Shown here in pieces: positions 8,753-22,701 of a DNA stretch of 26,686 nucleotides. The notes under the pieces were generated by a model. That model did no database searches. It saw nothing but the letters and a program-made list of their open reading frames with translations, and was not told where the DNA came from. Each line of letters begins with the position of its first letter. Position 1 is the first letter of the stretch. A program made the position numbers and the translations under genes. Origin of the DNA: a virus; the IMG/VR virus record IMGVR_UViG_3300037804_000131, positions 1 to 26,686 of that record; one strand, given 5' to 3'.

Positions 8753-9292
8753 GGAGAGACCTAATGTCTTAAAGTGAATGCCTTTAGGCGAAAGTAAAGC
8801 TAGATAGCTCAATATGTATTGCCTTAATACATCAAACCTCATGTAAAGGAATACTACCTGAATCAGTATAGTAAGTGGGCTGAGTATAGGTGTGAGAAAA
8901 GTATTCATAAGGACTAGCAAAGATTTGCGGTGGAGAACTGGTGTTCAAGTGGGTTTCATAAGCCCGCCTCCGAAGGTTCGATTCCTTCCTCCGCAACCAT
9001 TTAGTGATAAGTCTTAAATAAAGATTTATTACTACTTATCTTGATTAAAAAACAAAGCAGTGGTCTTCGCTACGCTACGACAGTACTGCTTAGTTTCACG
9101 ATTTATTCCCTAGAACGTCTCTCGTTCTAATTAAATATACTACTGAGTTCTTGATATCAGCTAAATGACCTACATGGATAGCTTCCGTGTCGTGTGCAGT
9201 TGTAGACACGGTTTAGTAAGAACTATTTGTATTTGAAAATGCTTTAAAAAGCCTCTGCATCTAAAACAGTAGTATAGTTTTATCTAGTAAAC
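8753..9292 (+). ncRNA. Structured non-coding block (candidate RNA), includes a tRNA-like element
   Basis: No credible gene lies here. Stems seen: ATGTATT/AATACAT (about 8814-8832, 5-base loop); GAATACT (8849-8855) with AGTATTC (8900-8906), an alternative to a local ATACT/AGTAT hairpin; the tRNA-like element at 8926-8999; GATAAGT/ACTTATC (9006-9012, 9034-9040) enclosing AATAA/TTATT; AAGCAGT/ACTGCTT (9055-9061, 9085-9091); TAGAACG/CGTTCTA (9111-9117, 9123-9129); CCGTGTC/GACACGG (9185-9191, 9205-9211). A tRNA inside a hairpin-rich phage non-coding region recalls the GOLLD class of large phage RNAs, but no family match was tested. Confidence 0.4.
8926..8999 (+). tRNA. tRNA-Met(CAT) or tRNA-like element with short D-arm
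   Basis: 74 nt with encoded CCA (8997-8999). The T-arm is GAAGG-TTCGATT-CCTTC and textbook-like. The anticodon loop TTCATAA gives CAT (Met, initiator-like or Ile2). The acceptor pairs TGCGGTG with CTCCGCA with one T-T mismatch. Oddities: the D-arm GAAC-TGGT-GTTC has a loop of only 4 bases, and position 8 is G rather than the near-universal T. It may be a working phage tRNA of reduced form or a mimic inside a larger RNA. Confidence 0.6.
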
Positions 9293-11276: not shown

Positions 11277-12298
11277 TGGCTTTCGCTAACGCAAACTTTG
11301 GAAATTTTGACCAAAGAAATCTAAGAAATATTATGGATACATTCATTTCTGAAGCACCTAAGAGAACAGATAGTGTGTTGTATAAACAGTATATTAATGG
11401 CACTAGATATGTTGACTTTGTAGGTAATGCCTATAAGATTAATTTATTTACAGATTATAGCACACAACGTTGGTATAAGAATAATCATTCTAAAGCTAAA
11501 GCTATAACTCAAATACCTGATGGTATAATAGACGTCAATAAACAGACTATTGTTTTACACGACTGGCAGTTGTTTGAAGAAGGTTCTCAGGCTTTAGGTT
11601 CTGAGTTTTATGATTATTTTAAGTTAAGCAATCATTGGACTATTGAACTAAATGCAGGCACTTCTGATATGATAAGAGCAGATGGTTTTAAAGAGCTTAA
11701 GTGTAAGAATAGCGATGTGAATACGTGGTTTCCAGGGATTAAGATTGACCTTGTTAACTATAATGTGCTAAATAAACCACCTAAGAAACTCCAAGATATT
11801 GCTGATAACTGGAAGAAACTATACAGATTAAGAACCAATGGTCGTGCAAGAGCTAGAAAAGGCAATGACAGAGCTTTAGCTCGTCTTGACATGTATAAAA
11901 GAACAGGTAATGCAGATTTCGTTGAAATGACGGATGTATTTAAACTGTTTAATGTCTCTGACAGACGAAAAGTTATTGATATGTTTGGCATGGATACTAT
12001 CTTAGCTTCTTGTAACATGAAATCATTAAACGTTGACACAGTAGACGAAAGACCTTACGAATTAGTGTCTGTTGAGATTGAAGATGTAGGTAGCGTTAAA
12101 GGCGTAAGATGGTGTAACTACCTCAGAATGGTTAATCCAAGTACGGATGAAATACATTTTGAAGGCGTACCTAACACCGCAACTACAGTCAAAGAAGCAT
12201 TAGGCTGGAGAGACGGAGAGATTGAGCCTAAATGGAATGGAGCAAATAGAGAAAGAACTATGGAAGGTGAATACATCAAACCAAAAGTCCTTACCTAA
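11276..12298 (+). CDS. DUF6745-like protein
   Basis: 340 aa. The C-terminal third carries the DUF6745-type pattern: VFKLFNVSDRRKVIDMFGMD, an LRMVNPSTDEIHFEGVPN loop, and VKEALGWRDGE near the end. The N-terminal region is mixed alpha/beta with no recognised motif. The molecular role of the family is unknown to me. Start is coupled to the GHHH gene, and its stop overlaps the next gene's ATG, giving a three-gene cluster (10830-12513). Confidence 0.6.
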   Translation: MAFANANFGNFDQRNLRNIMDTFISEAPKRTDSVLYKQYINGTRYVDFVGNAYKINLFTDYSTQRWYKNNHSKAKAITQIPDGIIDVNKQTIVLHDWQLFEEGSQALGSEFYDYFKLSNHWTIELNAGTSDMIRADGFKELKCKNSDVNTWFPGIKIDLVNYNVLNKPPKKLQDIADNWKKLYRLRTNGRARARKGNDRALARLDMYKRTGNADFVEMTDVFKLFNVSDRRKVIDMFGMDTILASCNMKSLNVDTVDERPYELVSVEIEDVGSVKGVRWCNYLRMVNPSTDEIHFEGVPNTATTVKEALGWRDGEIEPKWNGANRERTMEGEYIKPKVLT

Positions 12299-12513
12299 TG
12301 AGTGAACTGTATAAAGTGAAAGCACCTTGGTATTGTAATGCCATTAAAACAAAGGTAAATCACTATAAAGAAAGAAGACCTTACATTGATGTTAAATATT
12401 GCAGTAAGTGTCAAACCACTTGGGAATACAACTACGGTGGTTCTTTAATACATTATCGTCATTTACCTACCTATGGATTAGATAGGGTTGAGTGTCAAGA
12501 GTGTGAGCAATAA
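12298..12513 (+). CDS. Small zinc-ribbon protein (71 aa)
   Basis: Two CxxC pairs, YCSKCQTTWEY and VECQECEQ at the very C-terminus, separated by about 35 residues with His/Tyr-rich sequence (IHYRHLPTYG). This is a likely zinc ribbon for nucleic acid or protein binding. Coupled to the DUF6745-like gene through TAATG and followed by a terminator-like hairpin. Confidence 0.7.
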   Translation: MSELYKVKAPWYCNAIKTKVNHYKERRPYIDVKYCSKCQTTWEYNYGGSLIHYRHLPTYGLDRVECQECEQ

Positions 12514-12549
12514 GAGTTGGGGTAGGGATGCGGTCTCTACCCCTCACTC
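12514..12549. terminator. Terminator-like hairpin between convergent genes
   Basis: GGGGTAGGGA (12519-12528) pairs with TCTCTACCCC (12534-12543) with one wobble and a 5-base loop, extended outward by GAGT/ACTC (12514-12517, 12546-12549). It exactly fills the gap between the converging stops at 12513 and 12551, so it can serve both directions. T-runs are absent. Confidence 0.65.
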
Positions 12550-17053: not shown

Positions 17054-17358
17054 TGTCTTACGACTTTTCTAAAACACTACGTCATAAGGGGCAGAGCAAT
17101 GAGTCTTTGCTCCTTGACTGGTTTGAACTGCGAGGAAATATTCCTTTCGCTAGTTACGATATTCAGTCTAATGCTGTAAAGTTCTTTAAGAATATTTACA
17201 ACAGAAAAGTTCAACCTGATACCTTAAATAGGTTATGGAGAGCTATGAGACAAGAGTATGTAGCTGATAAAAACAATTCAAAATTGTATAAACACGGGTT
17301 TGCTTTTAAAGAAGTAACACAAGGAAAAGGAAAATCATGGGTAATTACTAATGAATAG
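17053..17358 (+). CDS. Unknown protein before the helicase (101 aa)
   Basis: MSYDFSKTLRHKGQSNESLLLDW..., with DTLNRLWRAMRQEYVADKN and a short beta end (GKGKSWVITNE). The pattern resembles a small winged helix used for DNA binding, but that is a guess from secondary structure. It shares its first base with the preceding stop and overlaps the primase-helicase by 8 bases, implying a replication role such as helicase loading. Confidence 0.6.
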   Translation: MSYDFSKTLRHKGQSNESLLLDWFELRGNIPFASYDIQSNAVKFFKNIYNRKVQPDTLNRLWRAMRQEYVADKNNSKLYKHGFAFKEVTQGKGKSWVITNE

Positions 17359-19147
17359 CGATATACGTATGGTAGAAATAGCTACAGGTCATGTTTCAAA
17401 CAGAAGCCAAGTAGCTGAAATATCAAAGATACCTGAGTATATCTTTGAAAAATCTGAAAAGACAGAAACATATCATAGTTGGTATCAATTTGACGAACAA
17501 CTAGACCAGCATATTAAATCTACTGGAACCATTCAAGGTTACAACGGAGTTTATTACGTTGGAAACATCATATTAGATTACGATAGAAACAATCTATCTG
17601 ACCAACAGTTGTATCAAGCTGTTCACCACCTAGTAAACACAGGTATGATTGAAGACTTAGGAATCAACAGTAGTCATATACTTATATGGTACTCTGGAAC
17701 TGGTTTTCACATAGAAATACCTAACTTATTTGGGTTTTCACCTTCTACTACCTTACCTAGTATTGTAAGAGAAACGCTCACGGCTATATTTCCTGAATGT
17801 GACTCTATATACGATGGTGCTAGACTTATTAGAGCTGGTTTTAGCTTTAACAATAAGAAAGGTAACTTTAAAATTCCTTATAGAGTAGAAACGTTTAACG
17901 ACCTTTCTATGGTAGATATTTTAAAGGACAGTAATGATAGAATTGGGAGAGCTAATCCATACAGATGGGACAATGTTAAGCCTTATTTAAGTGAATACAT
18001 TAAATACCCTAAACTTAGTTTAACCCGTGAGAACAACACAGTTAGAACAGAGTTTAGGATAGACCCTAATTCTGTTGTAACCTGCATGCAAACTGTTTTA
18101 GGTAATCACCCCACACGTGGAGAACGCAATACGACTATGATGCGTGTTGGTTCATGGATGAGACGCTCTGGTATTCCTAAAAGAATAGTAGAGATGACCT
18201 TATCTGAATGGTCTGGACTGCCTTCAGAGTCTGAAGAAGTGTCTACAAAAGTGTTTGAACAAGGATACGAATACAGTTGCAACGACCATATAATGGCAAA
18301 ACATTGCAAACCAAATTGTATTTACTTTAAACACAAAGACTACAACCTTAATATTGCTAATCCTGAAGACTTGTCTGATAGGTTTGCTGATTTTATTCAG
18401 AAAGACTTTACAGATAAAGCTTTCAATTTTAAGGACATTTATGACATACCCTACGACCACTGGTGTTTTCCTGGTGAATTAATTATTGTTACAGGAAATA
18501 CTGGGTTAGGTAAATCTACTTGGGTTCAAAACCTTGTAACCAAACTTCCAAATATGAGTACGTTGTTTTTATCTTTAGAGAACACTTACCATTTAACATT
18601 TAGGAGGTTTTGTCAAATAACACACTCTTTAACTAAAGAGCAGGTTATTAAAGACTATAAGGATAGCACAGTTAAGCCTAATTATCATGAAGCCTTTAAA
18701 CACATACATGTATTGTGTGAAGCTCCAGAGTTAGGAAAACTAACAGAGACTATAGCTAGAATGCAACCTAAGATAGTAGTTGTTGACACTACTGATATGG
18801 TATTCGTAAAAGGAATACACGATGAGATTGGCAAGATGAATGCCATTATTAATGGACTAAAAGCAATCGCTCAAAGTCAAGAAATAATAGTCATTGCAGT
18901 ACATCATGTCAATAAACAAGCTATGCACGAAGGAGTTTCAACTATCACCAGTTTAAAAGGTACTACTAATGTAGTGCAGAAAGCAGACAAAGTGTTTGCT
19001 ATTAATGGTGATAACAATGAAATCATGCGTAGCGTTCATTCAGAAAAAGCTAGAGACGAAGGGTTCATGAGAATGATGTTTAAGTTTCATAAGAACACCA
19101 TGATATTTGAACAACAAGCTAATAGTCAAGGATTTGGTGATGATTAG
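17351..19147 (+). CDS. Primase-helicase: AEP-type primase fused to RecA-fold helicase
   Basis: 598 aa. The N-terminal archaeo-eukaryotic primase domain has the metal-binding DYD (76-78), the SGTGFH motif (115-120) and DGARLIR (155-161) with a following SFNNKKG. Residues 255-325 include GERNTTMMRVGSWMRR and Cys310, Cys319 and Cys323, possibly a zinc-binding linker. The C-terminal helicase has Walker A GNTGLGKST (382-390), Walker B IVVVDTTD (475-482) and VIAVHHVNK. It should both prime and unwind at the phage fork. This is not the T7 gp4 type, whose primase is TOPRIM/DnaG. Confidence 0.88.
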   Translation: MNSDIRMVEIATGHVSNRSQVAEISKIPEYIFEKSEKTETYHSWYQFDEQLDQHIKSTGTIQGYNGVYYVGNIILDYDRNNLSDQQLYQAVHHLVNTGMIEDLGINSSHILIWYSGTGFHIEIPNLFGFSPSTTLPSIVRETLTAIFPECDSIYDGARLIRAGFSFNNKKGNFKIPYRVETFNDLSMVDILKDSNDRIGRANPYRWDNVKPYLSEYIKYPKLSLTRENNTVRTEFRIDPNSVVTCMQTVLGNHPTRGERNTTMMRVGSWMRRSGIPKRIVEMTLSEWSGLPSESEEVSTKVFEQGYEYSCNDHIMAKHCKPNCIYFKHKDYNLNIANPEDLSDRFADFIQKDFTDKAFNFKDIYDIPYDHWCFPGELIIVTGNTGLGKSTWVQNLVTKLPNMSTLFLSLENTYHLTFRRFCQITHSLTKEQVIKDYKDSTVKPNYHEAFKHIHVLCEAPELGKLTETIARMQPKIVVVDTTDMVFVKGIHDEIGKMNAIINGLKAIAQSQEIIVIAVHHVNKQAMHEGVSTITSLKGTTNVVQKADKVFAINGDNNEIMRSVHSEKARDEGFMRMMFKFHKNTMIFEQQANSQGFGDD

Positions 19148-19316: not shown

Positions 19317-19636
19317 TGGGTAAAATGAAACATGAGTTTGAGAAACTCGAAAAGAACGGTCCTGAAGACATAACTGATATGATGATGCCAGATGACCTTA
19401 AGGTTTATATGGAATCACAATCAGCAAACAAGTTTGAAGTACATGAAGTGCGTAAACAACTTATCAGAAGTATGGAAACAGGTGAATCTATCATGGATTT
19501 AGTTAAAAAAAGATTTGAGTTTATAGAATCTGATATAAAGAGAGTAGATAACGTGAATCAGAAACAGGAAGCTTTAATGAATGAGATAATGCTTATGTTT
19601 GAATCAGTAAATAAAAAGTTAAATGAGTCATCCTAG
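19316..19636 (+). CDS. Unknown acidic helical protein (106 aa)
   Basis: I chose the ATG at 19316 because it forms the TAATG junction used repeatedly in this operon; an ATG at 19310 is also in frame. The protein is strongly helical with coiled-coil stretches (EVHEVRKQLIRSMETGES, RVDNVNQKQEALMNEIM). No domain recognised. It overlaps the next gene by 14 bases. Confidence 0.6.
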   Translation: MGKMKHEFEKLEKNGPEDITDMMMPDDLKVYMESQSANKFEVHEVRKQLIRSMETGESIMDLVKKRFEFIESDIKRVDNVNQKQEALMNEIMLMFESVNKKLNESS

Positions 19637-19925
19637 TAAGATAAAAGGTAACAAATTTGAACGTGAACTGGTAGACCTCGCTAAAGAGCGGGGTCTGTCA
19701 GCTAAGAGAGCGTGGGGTAGTAACGGACGTTCCCTTGGCATGCACGATGAAGTTGACTGCCTTATTGAAGATTATACCGTTCAAGCAAAACGAAGAAAAA
19801 GTATCGCCTCATTTTTGAAATGTGAGCATACTGATATAGTTGCATTTAGAGAAGACAGAGGTGATACATACGCTTTAATACCTATGGAAGTCTTTCTCGA
19901 TTTATTAAAAAAACTAAAAGGTTAG
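19623..19925 (+). CDS. Hjc-like Holliday junction nuclease (PD-(D/E)XK)
   Basis: 100 aa. GNKFERELVDLAKERGL, the AWGSNGRS loop (31-37), EVDC (43-46) and VQAKRRKS (53-60) follow the Hjc/PD-(D/E)XK order: acidic residue, Ser-rich loop, catalytic Asp45 and a QxK in place of the usual ExK, a substitution tolerated in several phage nucleases. It would cut four-way junctions during recombination-driven replication or before packaging, which suits the annealase upstream. Confidence 0.8.
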   Translation: MSHPSKIKGNKFERELVDLAKERGLSAKRAWGSNGRSLGMHDEVDCLIEDYTVQAKRRKSIASFLKCEHTDIVAFREDRGDTYALIPMEVFLDLLKKLKG

Positions 19926-19928
19926 AAA

Positions 19929-20138
19929 ATGACAGTTAAAGAAGCAAAAAAGTATTTAGACCGCTATGATGACAATGATGAAATTACTATAGCTTGGTGG
20001 GATAAAGACATGGCTCCCTATGATACAGAAGAAATACCTTGGGAAGAGCAAGTTAGCATTCTGGACAATAAAATGGATTGGTCAGGCACTCATGAAGATA
20101 TGAGAATTTGTATAGACAGCTATTGGAGTGACGAATGA
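19929..20138 (+). CDS. Small acidic protein, WW-motif family copy 1
   Basis: 69 aa, highly acidic: MTVKEAKKYLDRYDDNDEIT, then IAWWDKD, PWEEQVSIL and an end DSYWSDE. It shares the order E-I-x-x-x-W-W ... W-[DE]-E ... W with the protein at 20530, so the two look like paralogs. Such Asp/Glu/Trp-rich short proteins are frequent in phage early regions; DNA mimicry is one idea but not shown. Confidence 0.6.
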   Translation: MTVKEAKKYLDRYDDNDEITIAWWDKDMAPYDTEEIPWEEQVSILDNKMDWSGTHEDMRICIDSYWSDE

Positions 20139-20540: not shown

Positions 20541-20754
20541 AGCATACATTAAGGTGATAGAAGAGTCTTGTGACCCAGAAGAAGAAATCTTTTGTAGTTG
20601 GTGGACTGAAAGTTGTAACAGTTCACTAGTTGATGATTTAGACATAACATGGGACGAAGCCTGTAAGTTATTTGACCATGATTATCATTGGGACTTATGG
20701 GACGAATTTAGAAGTTTTTTAGAATACGTATTAGAAGAAAGGAGTAAAGAATGA
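20530..20754 (+). CDS. Small acidic protein, WW-motif family copy 2
   Basis: 74 aa: MKAKAYIKVIEESCDPEEEI, then FCSWWTES, ITWDEACKLFDH, WDLWDEF. The arrangement parallels the protein at 19929, and the two are separated by two unrelated small genes. Very acidic, Trp-rich. Weak ribosome-binding site; likely coupled to the overlapping 52-aa gene. Confidence 0.6.
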   Translation: MKAKAYIKVIEESCDPEEEIFCSWWTESCNSSLVDDLDITWDEACKLFDHDYHWDLWDEFRSFLEYVLEERSKE

Positions 20755-20957
20755 AAATAGAATTTGTAAAACCAGTATTTCAAATTGATAAGTTTTTTAA
20801 AGTAGCTGACCATTTGCTTAAAGCAGATGATTATGAGCTAGTTGAACTTGGAAGAACTATGAGAGAAGCTTACAAGGCTCAGATGATGGAAGTAGACTTT
20901 GAAAAAGAAAAAGAATTTCCTTTTCAGCCTACGCCTATCCCTGGTACTGGAGAGTAA
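20751..20957 (+). CDS. Unknown 68-aa protein, last of the early operon
   Basis: MKIEFVKPVFQIDKFFKVAD... with a helix (YELVELGRTMREAYKAQMME) and an acidic, Pro-rich tail (FPFQPTPIPGTGE). AAGGAG upstream; ATG overlaps the previous stop. No family recognised. The structured non-coding block starts a few bases later. Confidence 0.6.
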   Translation: MKIEFVKPVFQIDKFFKVADHLLKADDYELVELGRTMREAYKAQMMEVDFEKEKEFPFQPTPIPGTGE

Positions 20958-20961
20958 AAAA

Positions 20962-21318
20962 TTGACCTCCCCCAAACATGACGTCGGAAAGCAGGATATA
21001 AAATGACAGGGTACTGCCTATGGGACAGAGGCTAGGTTTCTTTGAAGCGCACTCGGACCCGACTAACGCTGTGGCGTAAAAACGCCTATATAAGAAACCT
21101 AGTGGTCAATAAGATTTTGAGACTTTGTGTAAATAATTATTTTAATAACTAACGTAAGCGTGGAACATATAAAGCGCTTATACATTGTGTGTGCAAAAAA
21201 TGCACTTGTAATATGCTGGAATTAAGATGAATTATAAACACTCGGTTGGCGCCAAAAGTCTCAAAAGTATTATGGTAAACAAGAACATTGGGGGTTGCTT
21301 CTCCTACCCCCTTTGTTC
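20962..21318 (+). ncRNA. Candidate large structured RNA (about 350 nt)
   Basis: A gene-free stretch with nested stems. Domain I: CTAGGTTTCTT (21032-21042) with AAGAAACCTAG (21092-21102), 11 perfect pairs, enclosing AGCG/CGCT (21046-21049, 21067-21070) and GGCGT-AAAA-ACGCC (21073-21086), a three-way junction. Domain II: TTTTGAGACTTT (21115-21126) with AAAGTCTCAAAA (21255-21266), 12 perfect pairs, enclosing GTGCA-AAAAA-TGCAC (21191-21205). Domain III: GAACA-tt-GGGGG with CCCCC-tt-TGTTC (21283-21318). TTGGGGG (21288-21294) can instead pair with CCCCCAA at 20969-20975, a possible switch. TATAAA at 20997-21002 may be a -10 element. No known class recognised. Confidence 0.5.
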
Positions 21319-21340
21319 GTAAAATAGATAAGGAGCATTT

Positions 21341-21466
21341 ATGAGATATTATTGGGAAGCTGTCTTCAGTACGGAATATTTTCCCTATTGGGAGTTTACA
21401 ATGTTGATGGTCACATTTATGTGGCTACATGTTTGTAAAAAAATTGACAGAATTAAAAAGCGTTAA
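21341..21466 (+). CDS. 41-aa predicted membrane protein
   Basis: MRYYWEAVFSTEYFPYWEF, then one hydrophobic helix (TMLMVTFMWLHV) and a basic tail (CKKIDRIKKR). AAGGAG seven bases upstream. Stands just after the structured RNA candidate and before the zinc-ribbon gene. No family recognised. Confidence 0.55.
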   Translation: MRYYWEAVFSTEYFPYWEFTMLMVTFMWLHVCKKIDRIKKR

Positions 21467-21481
21467 TCTAAAGGAAAGCTT

Positions 21482-21823
21482 ATGTACTCGTCTAAAAAGG
21501 CGAGTGGGAAAGAAAGGGCTATTACTCAAGCAAGAATTAAAGACCTTGAGTATTATTTAGGAAGTGACTGGGTTGATTACAGTAAAGTCTCTTCTGAGTT
21601 AATCATCGAGATGTACCGAAATATTGGTACGTCAGCATATCAACCAAAGCAGTGTTTAAGTTGTAAGAAGTATTGGCACATGGAGTTACTTACACAGAAC
21701 GTTAAAAAACAAACGTATCTAAAAAGCACTATATTTGGCAATATACCTACGGAAAAAGAAACGTGTCAGGTATGTATATCAAAGTCAGGCAAGTCAATGT
21801 CTTCAACTAACAAAGGAGCGTAA
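21482..21823 (+). CDS. Zinc-ribbon protein (113 aa)
   Basis: QCLSCKKYWH and ETCQVCISKS give two CxxC pairs about 35 residues apart, a zinc-ribbon layout, preceded by a charged helical N-terminus (KKASGKERAITQARIKDLEYY). AAGG upstream. The last 58 bases overlap the 3' end of the integrase on the other strand, so the transcripts are antisense there. Placement opposite int suggests, without proof, a regulator or an excision partner. Confidence 0.6.
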   Translation: MYSSKKASGKERAITQARIKDLEYYLGSDWVDYSKVSSELIIEMYRNIGTSAYQPKQCLSCKKYWHMELLTQNVKKQTYLKSTIFGNIPTEKETCQVCISKSGKSMSSTNKGA

Positions 21824-22701
21824 CATCTTTCTGTAACTAACACAGATGAATGCCCTAATAGTTTAGACACCTGGAATATAGGCATTCCACCTTTGATAAG
21901 GTTTAGTCCGTAAGTTCTGCGTAAGTCATGAAATTTAGCGTTAGGTATTTCTAATGTCCTAGCTACGCTCTTAAAAGTTTTAGTGATATAATCTTCTGGA
22001 TAATTCCACAATACCTCTTGCTCCATTAAAATTACACGAGCCTGAGAATTAAGCTTTATATACCTTTCCTTTGATTTTCCCCTTACCCTAAGTCTGACTG
22101 GTTCAATTTGGTGAGGTTTTAGGCTATTTATTTCGCCTCGTCTAGCTCCAGTAAAGTAAGCAAACTTCAAAAAGGCACTAAAATCGCCATATTTCTTACC
22201 TTTTCTAAAAATAATAGGCGTTTCTTCAAGCAATAAGGATAACTCTCTGTTATTAAAACAACGAGTTCTACCCATTTGTTTTTCTAATTTGTACTTTTTT
22301 TGGTCTGTTTCTATACCCATACGCTTTCCCCAATTTACAACAGCATTGAGTTTTCTTTCATAAGTAGTTCTAGAAACACGCTTAACATCTTTAGGCATTC
22401 CATGTTTCATATAATACGTTAGAAAGTACGTATTTTCACGTAATGTTTTAGGAGACCACCTAGCTTTAACATCCTTATTCTCTAAGTAAACTCTAATAAG
22501 CTTCTTAAAGTCCATAAACCTTGCTCGTTGTTTTGGTTCATGGTATTGCATAAGAGCTTGATACTCTAGTGTTTGGTGTAATTTGTTTGCTACCCTTAAG
22601 TCTTTAGTATGAGTAGCTAGGATTATTTTAGTTCCGTTGATTTGTTTACGATAAAATATATTGCCTTTTAAATCAACCCAGAAATTTGGTTTGAGTCCCA
22701 T
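21766..22701 (-). CDS. int: Tyrosine-type integrase
   Basis: 311 aa. The C-terminal catalytic domain has Arg187 in TGARRGE, Lys in GKSKERY (209-214), HDLRRTYG (His258, Arg261), LLGHSS (His284) and the nucleophile Tyr294 in TERCYAPL. The N-terminus includes an arm-binding-like segment (WVDLKGNIFYRKQINGT) and a core-binding helical domain (SPKTLRENTYFLTYYM). Length is normal. It lies right next to attP, in the same orientation as the tRNA fragment, so in the lysogen it would sit just downstream of the rebuilt tRNA. AAGGG precedes the ATG. Confidence 0.93.
   Translation of the reverse strand: MGLKPNFWVDLKGNIFYRKQINGTKIILATHTKDLRVANKLHQTLEYQALMQYHEPKQRARFMDFKKLIRVYLENKDVKARWSPKTLRENTYFLTYYMKHGMPKDVKRVSRTTYERKLNAVVNWGKRMGIETDQKKYKLEKQMGRTRCFNNRELSLLLEETPIIFRKGKKYGDFSAFLKFAYFTGARRGEINSLKPHQIEPVRLRVRGKSKERYIKLNSQARVILMEQEVLWNYPEDYITKTFKSVARTLEIPNAKFHDLRRTYGLNLIKGGMPIFQVSKLLGHSSVLVTERCYAPLLVEDIDLPDFDIHT

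Follow-up and report, generated by a model that had tools for sequence, protein, structure and literature searches.

A candidate modular RNA with a conserved UUGGCR hairpin at one genomic place in ocean viruses

What is encoded by 383 nt without genes near the end of a phage early operon? The stretch in question occupies positions 20958-21340 of a 26.7-kb virus record, which was analysed over its full length and is called the window here. The + strand of the window carries an early gene block, which includes a Sak-like annealing protein, a primase/helicase (17351-19147) and a RusA-like resolvase (19623-19925), and the − strand carries the integrase (21766-22701) and the terminase. The 5′ edge of the gene-free block is the stop codon of a 68-aa ORF (20751-20957, + strand) and its 3′ edge is the start codon of a 41-aa ORF (21341-21466, + strand; MRYYWEA...), which is followed by a 113-aa zinc-ribbon-like CxxC...CxxC ORF that is conserved in the clan (21482-21823, + strand). 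No open frame crosses the block, as the original prediction had it, and there are 4-11 stops per frame in all six frames. The block had also been placed between the early operon and the integrase; a gene-free block is indeed found there, with the integrase at approximately 0.4 kb, but the block is not the last element of the early operon, as two further ORFs on the + strand come after it, ahead of the convergent integrase.

Two long stems with exact Watson-Crick pairing are found in this block, one of 11 bp (CTAGGTTTCTT, 21032-21042 with 21092-21102) and one of 12 bp (TTTTGAGACTTT, 21115-21126 with 21255-21266), and 20958-21330 contains no other perfect stem of at least 9 bp. Both had been predicted at these positions and as exceeding chance expectation, and both statements were borne out. 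Among 1000 dinucleotide-preserving shuffles, one stem of at least 11 bp was observed in 17, one of at least 12 bp in 2, and two such stems in none; additionally, when the window was divided into 141 overlapping stretches of 373 nt, only 20958-21330 contained two. Taken as a whole, the block also outperforms its shuffles in folding, with z = −3.5 for the + strand and −4.6 for the − strand. A palindrome of the window, UUGGCGCCAA, was considered as a dimerisation element and rejected, as its 3′ half is lost in relatives.

Relatives of the locus were sought in several ways. The helicase found no close relatives among cultured phages and GTDB genomes, and the RusA-like protein found, among cultured phages, only those of Salinibacter (~46% identity), in which another annotated gene begins immediately after it. 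DNA similarity searches against phage records returned short chance matches only, and the small ORF at 19929-20138 recovered no relatives when used as bait. The relatives compared here are uncultured (marine) viral contigs, and the first of them, found through the helicase, are mostly syntenic with the window. In these contigs, the stretch 3′ of the small ORF or of the RusA-like gene is likewise gene-poor and rich in inverted repeats, and their comparison revealed the motif GGTTGGC(R)(Y)(Y) directly 5′ of the 3′ strand of a long closing helix.

In the window, the closing helix is the 12-bp stem, and the domain that it encloses (21115-21266, + strand), called module B, is assigned as a structured RNA from a covariance model match (model R3, see below) and from synteny in relatives. 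The two strands of this helix, P1, are located at 21115-21126 and 21255-21266 (both on the + strand), and they pair exactly and covary. The 5′ strand of a second helix, P2 (21127-21138, + strand), is taken from the minimum-energy fold of the window, in which GUGU (21127-21130) pairs with ACAC (21238-21241) and AUAAUU (21133-21138) with AAUUAU (21230-21235); a helix at the place of P2 is also seen in relatives (no formal count). The covariation of P1 was counted in a gap-free cut-out alignment (A5) of 27 sequences and nine core pairs, which was used because MAFFT leaves P1 unaligned when the full bodies of the diverse sequences are given to it. In this alignment, 99.6% of the cells are paired, nine of nine pairs are changed on both sides and double changes amount to 97 cells in total, and sliding the partner by 1-3 columns lowers pairing to 29-46%. 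For instance, the innermost counted pair shows a C-G to U-A exchange between the window and three of the relatives (L020, L023 and L034). The best helix was picked for each sequence, with the identical pick applied to controls, and the closing helices of 27 of 29 homologues scored above all 232 dinucleotide-shuffled controls, and 20 of 29 exceeded the highest score among 232 random positions. Compensatory changes had been named beforehand as the decisive check, and they were thus found in the domain of the 12-bp stem. The strand signal of P1 is neutral (nine G-U versus six A-C cells), and no frame is open through module B in 21 of 27 homologues. Comparative evidence shows that selection maintains the predicted fold of module B across phages at one genomic place; the body of the module, the sequence of P1 and the downstream gene all vary across these phages. 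Homologues of the enclosed type measure about 75-182 nt. The longest closing helix found in any module B, of 18 bp, belongs to L169 (4729-4910), where an extended stem lies below the loop.

Model R3 was built from 16 relatives, with the window left out, and it finds module B in the window at 21118-21263 with 55.4 bits (E 8.6e-8), the next match reaching 18.6 bits. When applied to 888 kb of related loci, it gives 14 matches with E < 1, all of them at listed module B sites and some of them in a distant group of phages (L160, L180, L186, L187 and L193). In whole viral contigs, module B is present in 21 of 22, with one copy in each; two contigs gave a second match, which is the first site read on the opposite strand. 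The distant group (L159, L160 and L180-L194) shares a conserved module B interior, which contains a hairpin, CAGAGUUUGUAACC...GGUUGCUCUG, and a segment, UGACAAAUGA, that pairs with a 5′ UCAUNUGUCA-like strand; a CAAGGAAGACCCUUG hairpin is common to this group and to L006, which is close to the window. Downstream GGTTGGC is present in 33 of 55 helicase-anchored loci, with helicases down to ~30% identity and the structure checked in part, and module B is carried by roughly fifty ocean viruses at the same genomic place. Model R1, from which the variable body was removed, missed even the window and was dropped, and about ten matches of a pattern scan, which have no P1, were attributed to chance. 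Might the block be a set of inverted repeats that arose by chance and serve no function? The lack of detected homologues for domain 1 and for the third hairpin (see below) fits such a view, but neither the presence of both long stems, unmatched by any shuffle, nor the covariation of module B and its recovery by the model agree with it. Consequently, chance is an extremely improbable account of the block and, for module B, a chance origin is already refuted.

Just 5′ of the 3′ strand of P1 lies a mini-hairpin, Pm, which in the window is GGU-UGGC-GCC (GGUUGGCGCC, 21244-21253, + strand) and has the general form GGU-UGGC-RYY, with a near-invariant loop, UUGGCR, and stem changes on both sides. Variants of Pm were gathered by searching for TTGGC with a flanking helix, so the occurrence of UUGGC at 50 of 50 collected sites is partly by construction; GGUUGGC was first noticed without TTGGC as a search condition. 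The stem is changed on both sides in L016 (GGTTTGGCGATC), in L037 and L039 (GATTGGCGTC) and in L065 (TGTTGGCACA). Among 41 distinct sequences, double changes are observed in four of five pairs, the UUGGC loop (which was the search term) is invariant, and the 5′ side hardly varies. The many G-U pairs of Pm favour an RNA of the + strand; module B has the direction of the operon in all relatives, and we consider it highly probable that the RNA strand is +. A pseudoknot between UUGGC and an upstream GCCAA was also considered, and it is not claimed, as the pairing is present in some relatives and absent in others. In seven distant phages (L136, L147, L155, L162, L165, L167 and L170), the loop caps a 14-15-bp stem that no P1 encloses, and their putative homology rests on motif and place.

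The 11-bp stem closes domain 1 (21032-21102, + strand), a three-way junction that combines the exact closing stem with a similar minimum-energy fold. Inside it are the helix AGCG/CGCU (21046-21049/21067-21070) and the hairpin GGCGUAAAAACGCC (21073-21086). Several relatives have a different three-way junction, module A, between the upstream ORF and module B, with the layout P1, GUUGC, P2, ACAGYGAAUYAACRCC, NAYGC, P1′. In 14 sequences of module A, 95.8% of the cells are paired and 13 of 19 pairs are changed on both sides; judged by this comparison, it is a second undescribed three-way-junction RNA, with a predicted fold and strong covariation. Copies of module A are about 75-95 nt long (L003:9346-9421, L006:12888-12963, L018:2136-2231, L159:2464-2543, L173:2043-2119 and others). 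Its model, R2, finds it in nine of 22 contigs, with one copy in each, and it adjoins module B in close kin and lies some kilobases away in distant kin. Pattern matches to module A were also seen in bacterial genomes, but with R2 they reach 13-18 bits and resemble chance matches. When R2 was run with its filters off, domain 1 gave no match in 20958-21340, and a word search of the viral contigs with an 18-base word of domain 1 found none. Domain 1 and module A have in common their place, the three-way junction and a third hairpin of similar form (GCG-N6-CGCC-UA), and an as yet unproven possibility is that domain 1 is a diverged counterpart of module A. The structured RNA originally proposed is retained for module B. 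The 11-bp domain has no recognisable homologue and is backed by the chance test, and a single RNA spanning all three domains is a putative arrangement.

The third hairpin of the block (GAACA/UGUUC and GGGGGU/ACCCCC, 21283-21318, + strand) is derived from folding and has no U-tract. It had been described as terminator-like, but no T run follows it and a terminator scan of the window does not list it, which does not support a terminator. No homologue of it was detectable among the relatives. On paper, its UUGGGGG (21288-21294) could alternatively pair with CCCCCAA (20969-20975); the two mutually exclusive folds proposed from this pairing are hypothetical, and no relative suited to comparing the pairing was found. 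Many relatives have additional hairpins 3′ of module B. One of these, at a distance of 20-100 nt, has the conserved internal loop ACANUA/GACCU and is called module C. This GGCAGGGACANUAGA...UCGACCUUCCUGCC-like element is found in L020, L022, L023, L027, L030, L032, L034, L039 and their kin, and the third hairpin of the window occupies its place without its sequence. From these comparisons, the block appears to be a short series of RNA modules that can replace one another, anchored by module B. Elsewhere in the window, a GC-rich hairpin, GGGGTAGGGATGC...CTCTACCCC (12519-12543), lies between convergent ORFs and is possibly a two-way terminator.

Small proteins are also encoded around module B. 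Among 49 loci, 27 have an ORF that ends in C-x4-CD in the vicinity of module B, and no such ORF occurs anywhere else in these loci, which makes this the strongest genetic link of the module; such ORFs end by module B in L003, L004, L006, L007, L016, L018, L021-L023, L027, L030-L034, L036-L039, L041, L042, L154, L159, L160, L169 and L173. The C-x4-CD stands directly before the stop codon and its codons vary, which indicates that conservation concerns the protein ending. The upstream ORF of the window (20751-20957) has no such tail, although its homologues in several relatives do, and the link between C-x4-CD and module B is thus not obligatory. Additionally, a small CxxC...CxxC ORF is present at most 1.5 kb downstream of module B in 31 of 49 loci. 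The window has two CxxC...CxxC proteins (12298-12513 and 21482-21823), neither of which had a Pfam or NCBIfam match above the cut-off. The ORF at 21341-21466 and its counterparts in L002, L003, L007 and L015 encode proteins of 41-73 aa that start with MRYYWEA.FS.EYFPYWEF.MLM, are very conserved, belong to no family and are probably membrane-associated.

What, then, might this RNA do? We are almost certain that it is a structured RNA; it has no counterpart in Rfam 15 and is, very probably, a functional RNA of an undescribed type. The stretch 20958-21340 would encode a modular structured RNA on the + strand, within the transcript of the early operon. Its conserved core would be module B, in which P1 encloses a variable body and the UUGGCR hairpin juts out beside P1, and the first domain and the third hairpin would be accessory modules that are swapped phage by phage. 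The paired block may outlast the decay of the early mRNA, or it may be cut from this mRNA to give a stable RNA, and the UUGGCR loop could be the contact with a conserved partner, either a protein or a host RNA, for which the C-x4-CD-tailed protein is one candidate. A mechanism based on a stable RNA or RNP is our leading view and has, in our estimate, slightly less than an even chance of being correct. The complete proposal, namely that very divergent uncultured marine phages share a class of RNA not described before, which functions as a stable RNA/RNP, binds a conserved host or phage partner through UUGGCR early in infection and is genetically linked to the likewise undescribed C-x4-CD protein, is made tentatively.

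The main rival to a stable RNA/RNP is a cis element that serves the early operon: recognition of the nascent RNA, whether by RNA polymerase, by an RNase or by a phage antiterminator, would set the expression of flanking genes, as in put/nut-like, processing or stability elements. This is a real but doubtful possibility. Module B lies between co-directional genes. Usually the C-x4-CD ORF ends shortly before it, and in many relatives a start codon follows after tens of bases, a position that would suit a cis element; in L155, L162 and L167 it is followed by a GC-rich hairpin ending in T. However, the first downstream gene differs among relatives, which makes a leader for one gene unlikely, no boxA or terminator is consistently attached, and in L031 and L033 module B precedes the C-x4-CD gene. 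Furthermore, nut and put sites are known near the start of early operons, and module B is near the operon end. The neighbouring proteins offer a further reading, autoregulation, in which the C-x4-CD protein or the nearby CxxC...CxxC protein would bind Pm and control its own message. We consider it unlikely: the exclusive association of the C-x4-CD ORF with module B and the frequency of downstream CxxC...CxxC ORFs (see above) argue for it, but the tail is missing in the window ORF and in L117-L136, L146-L148, L155, L162-L167 and L174, and no RNA-binding family was found among the window proteins tested.

A function at the DNA level must also be weighed, as compensatory changes alone cannot separate RNA from DNA, P1 carries no strand signal and, in the window, the integrase is only 0.4 kb away. 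Under this reading, the block would be a replication origin, a recombination element or an attachment site that acts as a cruciform or a single-stranded hairpin. The frequent G-U pairs in Pm, the constant orientation with the operon and the several relatives without an adjoining integrase match all count against it, and we regard it as quite improbable. Module B adds to the phage RNAs a family that Rfam 15 lacks. Its covariation is strong, its consensus (P1 and the UUGGCR hairpin) is tight and its genomic address is fixed, so that it lends itself to annotation in viral metagenomes and to tests by ordinary genetics. Additionally, a loop that is kept almost letter for letter amid RNA turnover points to a conserved partner, and the conserved partners of phage RNAs are mostly unknown.

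How does this RNA compare with known families? A search of the whole window with Rfam 15 (4227 models) gave no match at gathering score, only chance matches were obtained in 20900-21500 at E <= 10, and the relatives yielded tRNA only; this search had been called for at the outset and, with no relevant family found, points to an uncatalogued phage RNA. A description of P1 together with the UUGGCR motif was likewise not found in open-access papers. Both GOLLD, known also from marine samples, and ROOL are structured RNAs of phages and prophages whose functions are unknown (PMC12286853). GOLLD is large, with many members above 800 nt, and found near tRNA islands, and ROOL has extensive helices, several predicted pseudoknots and a solved representative of 659 nt, and is often near tRNA islands as well (PMC12286853). 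By contrast, the window RNA, of about 150-380 nt and in an early operon, matches neither in Rfam, the 383-nt block falls short of the 600-800 nt or more of these families, and the sole tRNA of the window (8926-8999) is 12 kb away. The kinship with GOLLD or ROOL suggested by the original prediction is thus not upheld, as the RNA has no Rfam match, is much smaller and is outside any tRNA island. Comparative genomics has also revealed the manA and wcaG motifs, structured RNAs of marine phages that are described as associated with metabolic genes (PMC2864571). Module B, in contrast, is followed by a gene that varies, is small and has no known function, and it has no Rfam match. In T-boxes, UGGN pairs with the NCCA of tRNA, and by analogy the UGGC of the Pm loop might, in principle, base-pair with the GCCA end of a tRNA, but module B has none of the other T-box parts. 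Finally, the put sites of HK022 and the nut sites of lambda are structured RNA segments of early phage transcripts, formed by short hairpins near early promoters; module B shares with them its place in an early transcript, but it is larger and lies near the end of the operon.
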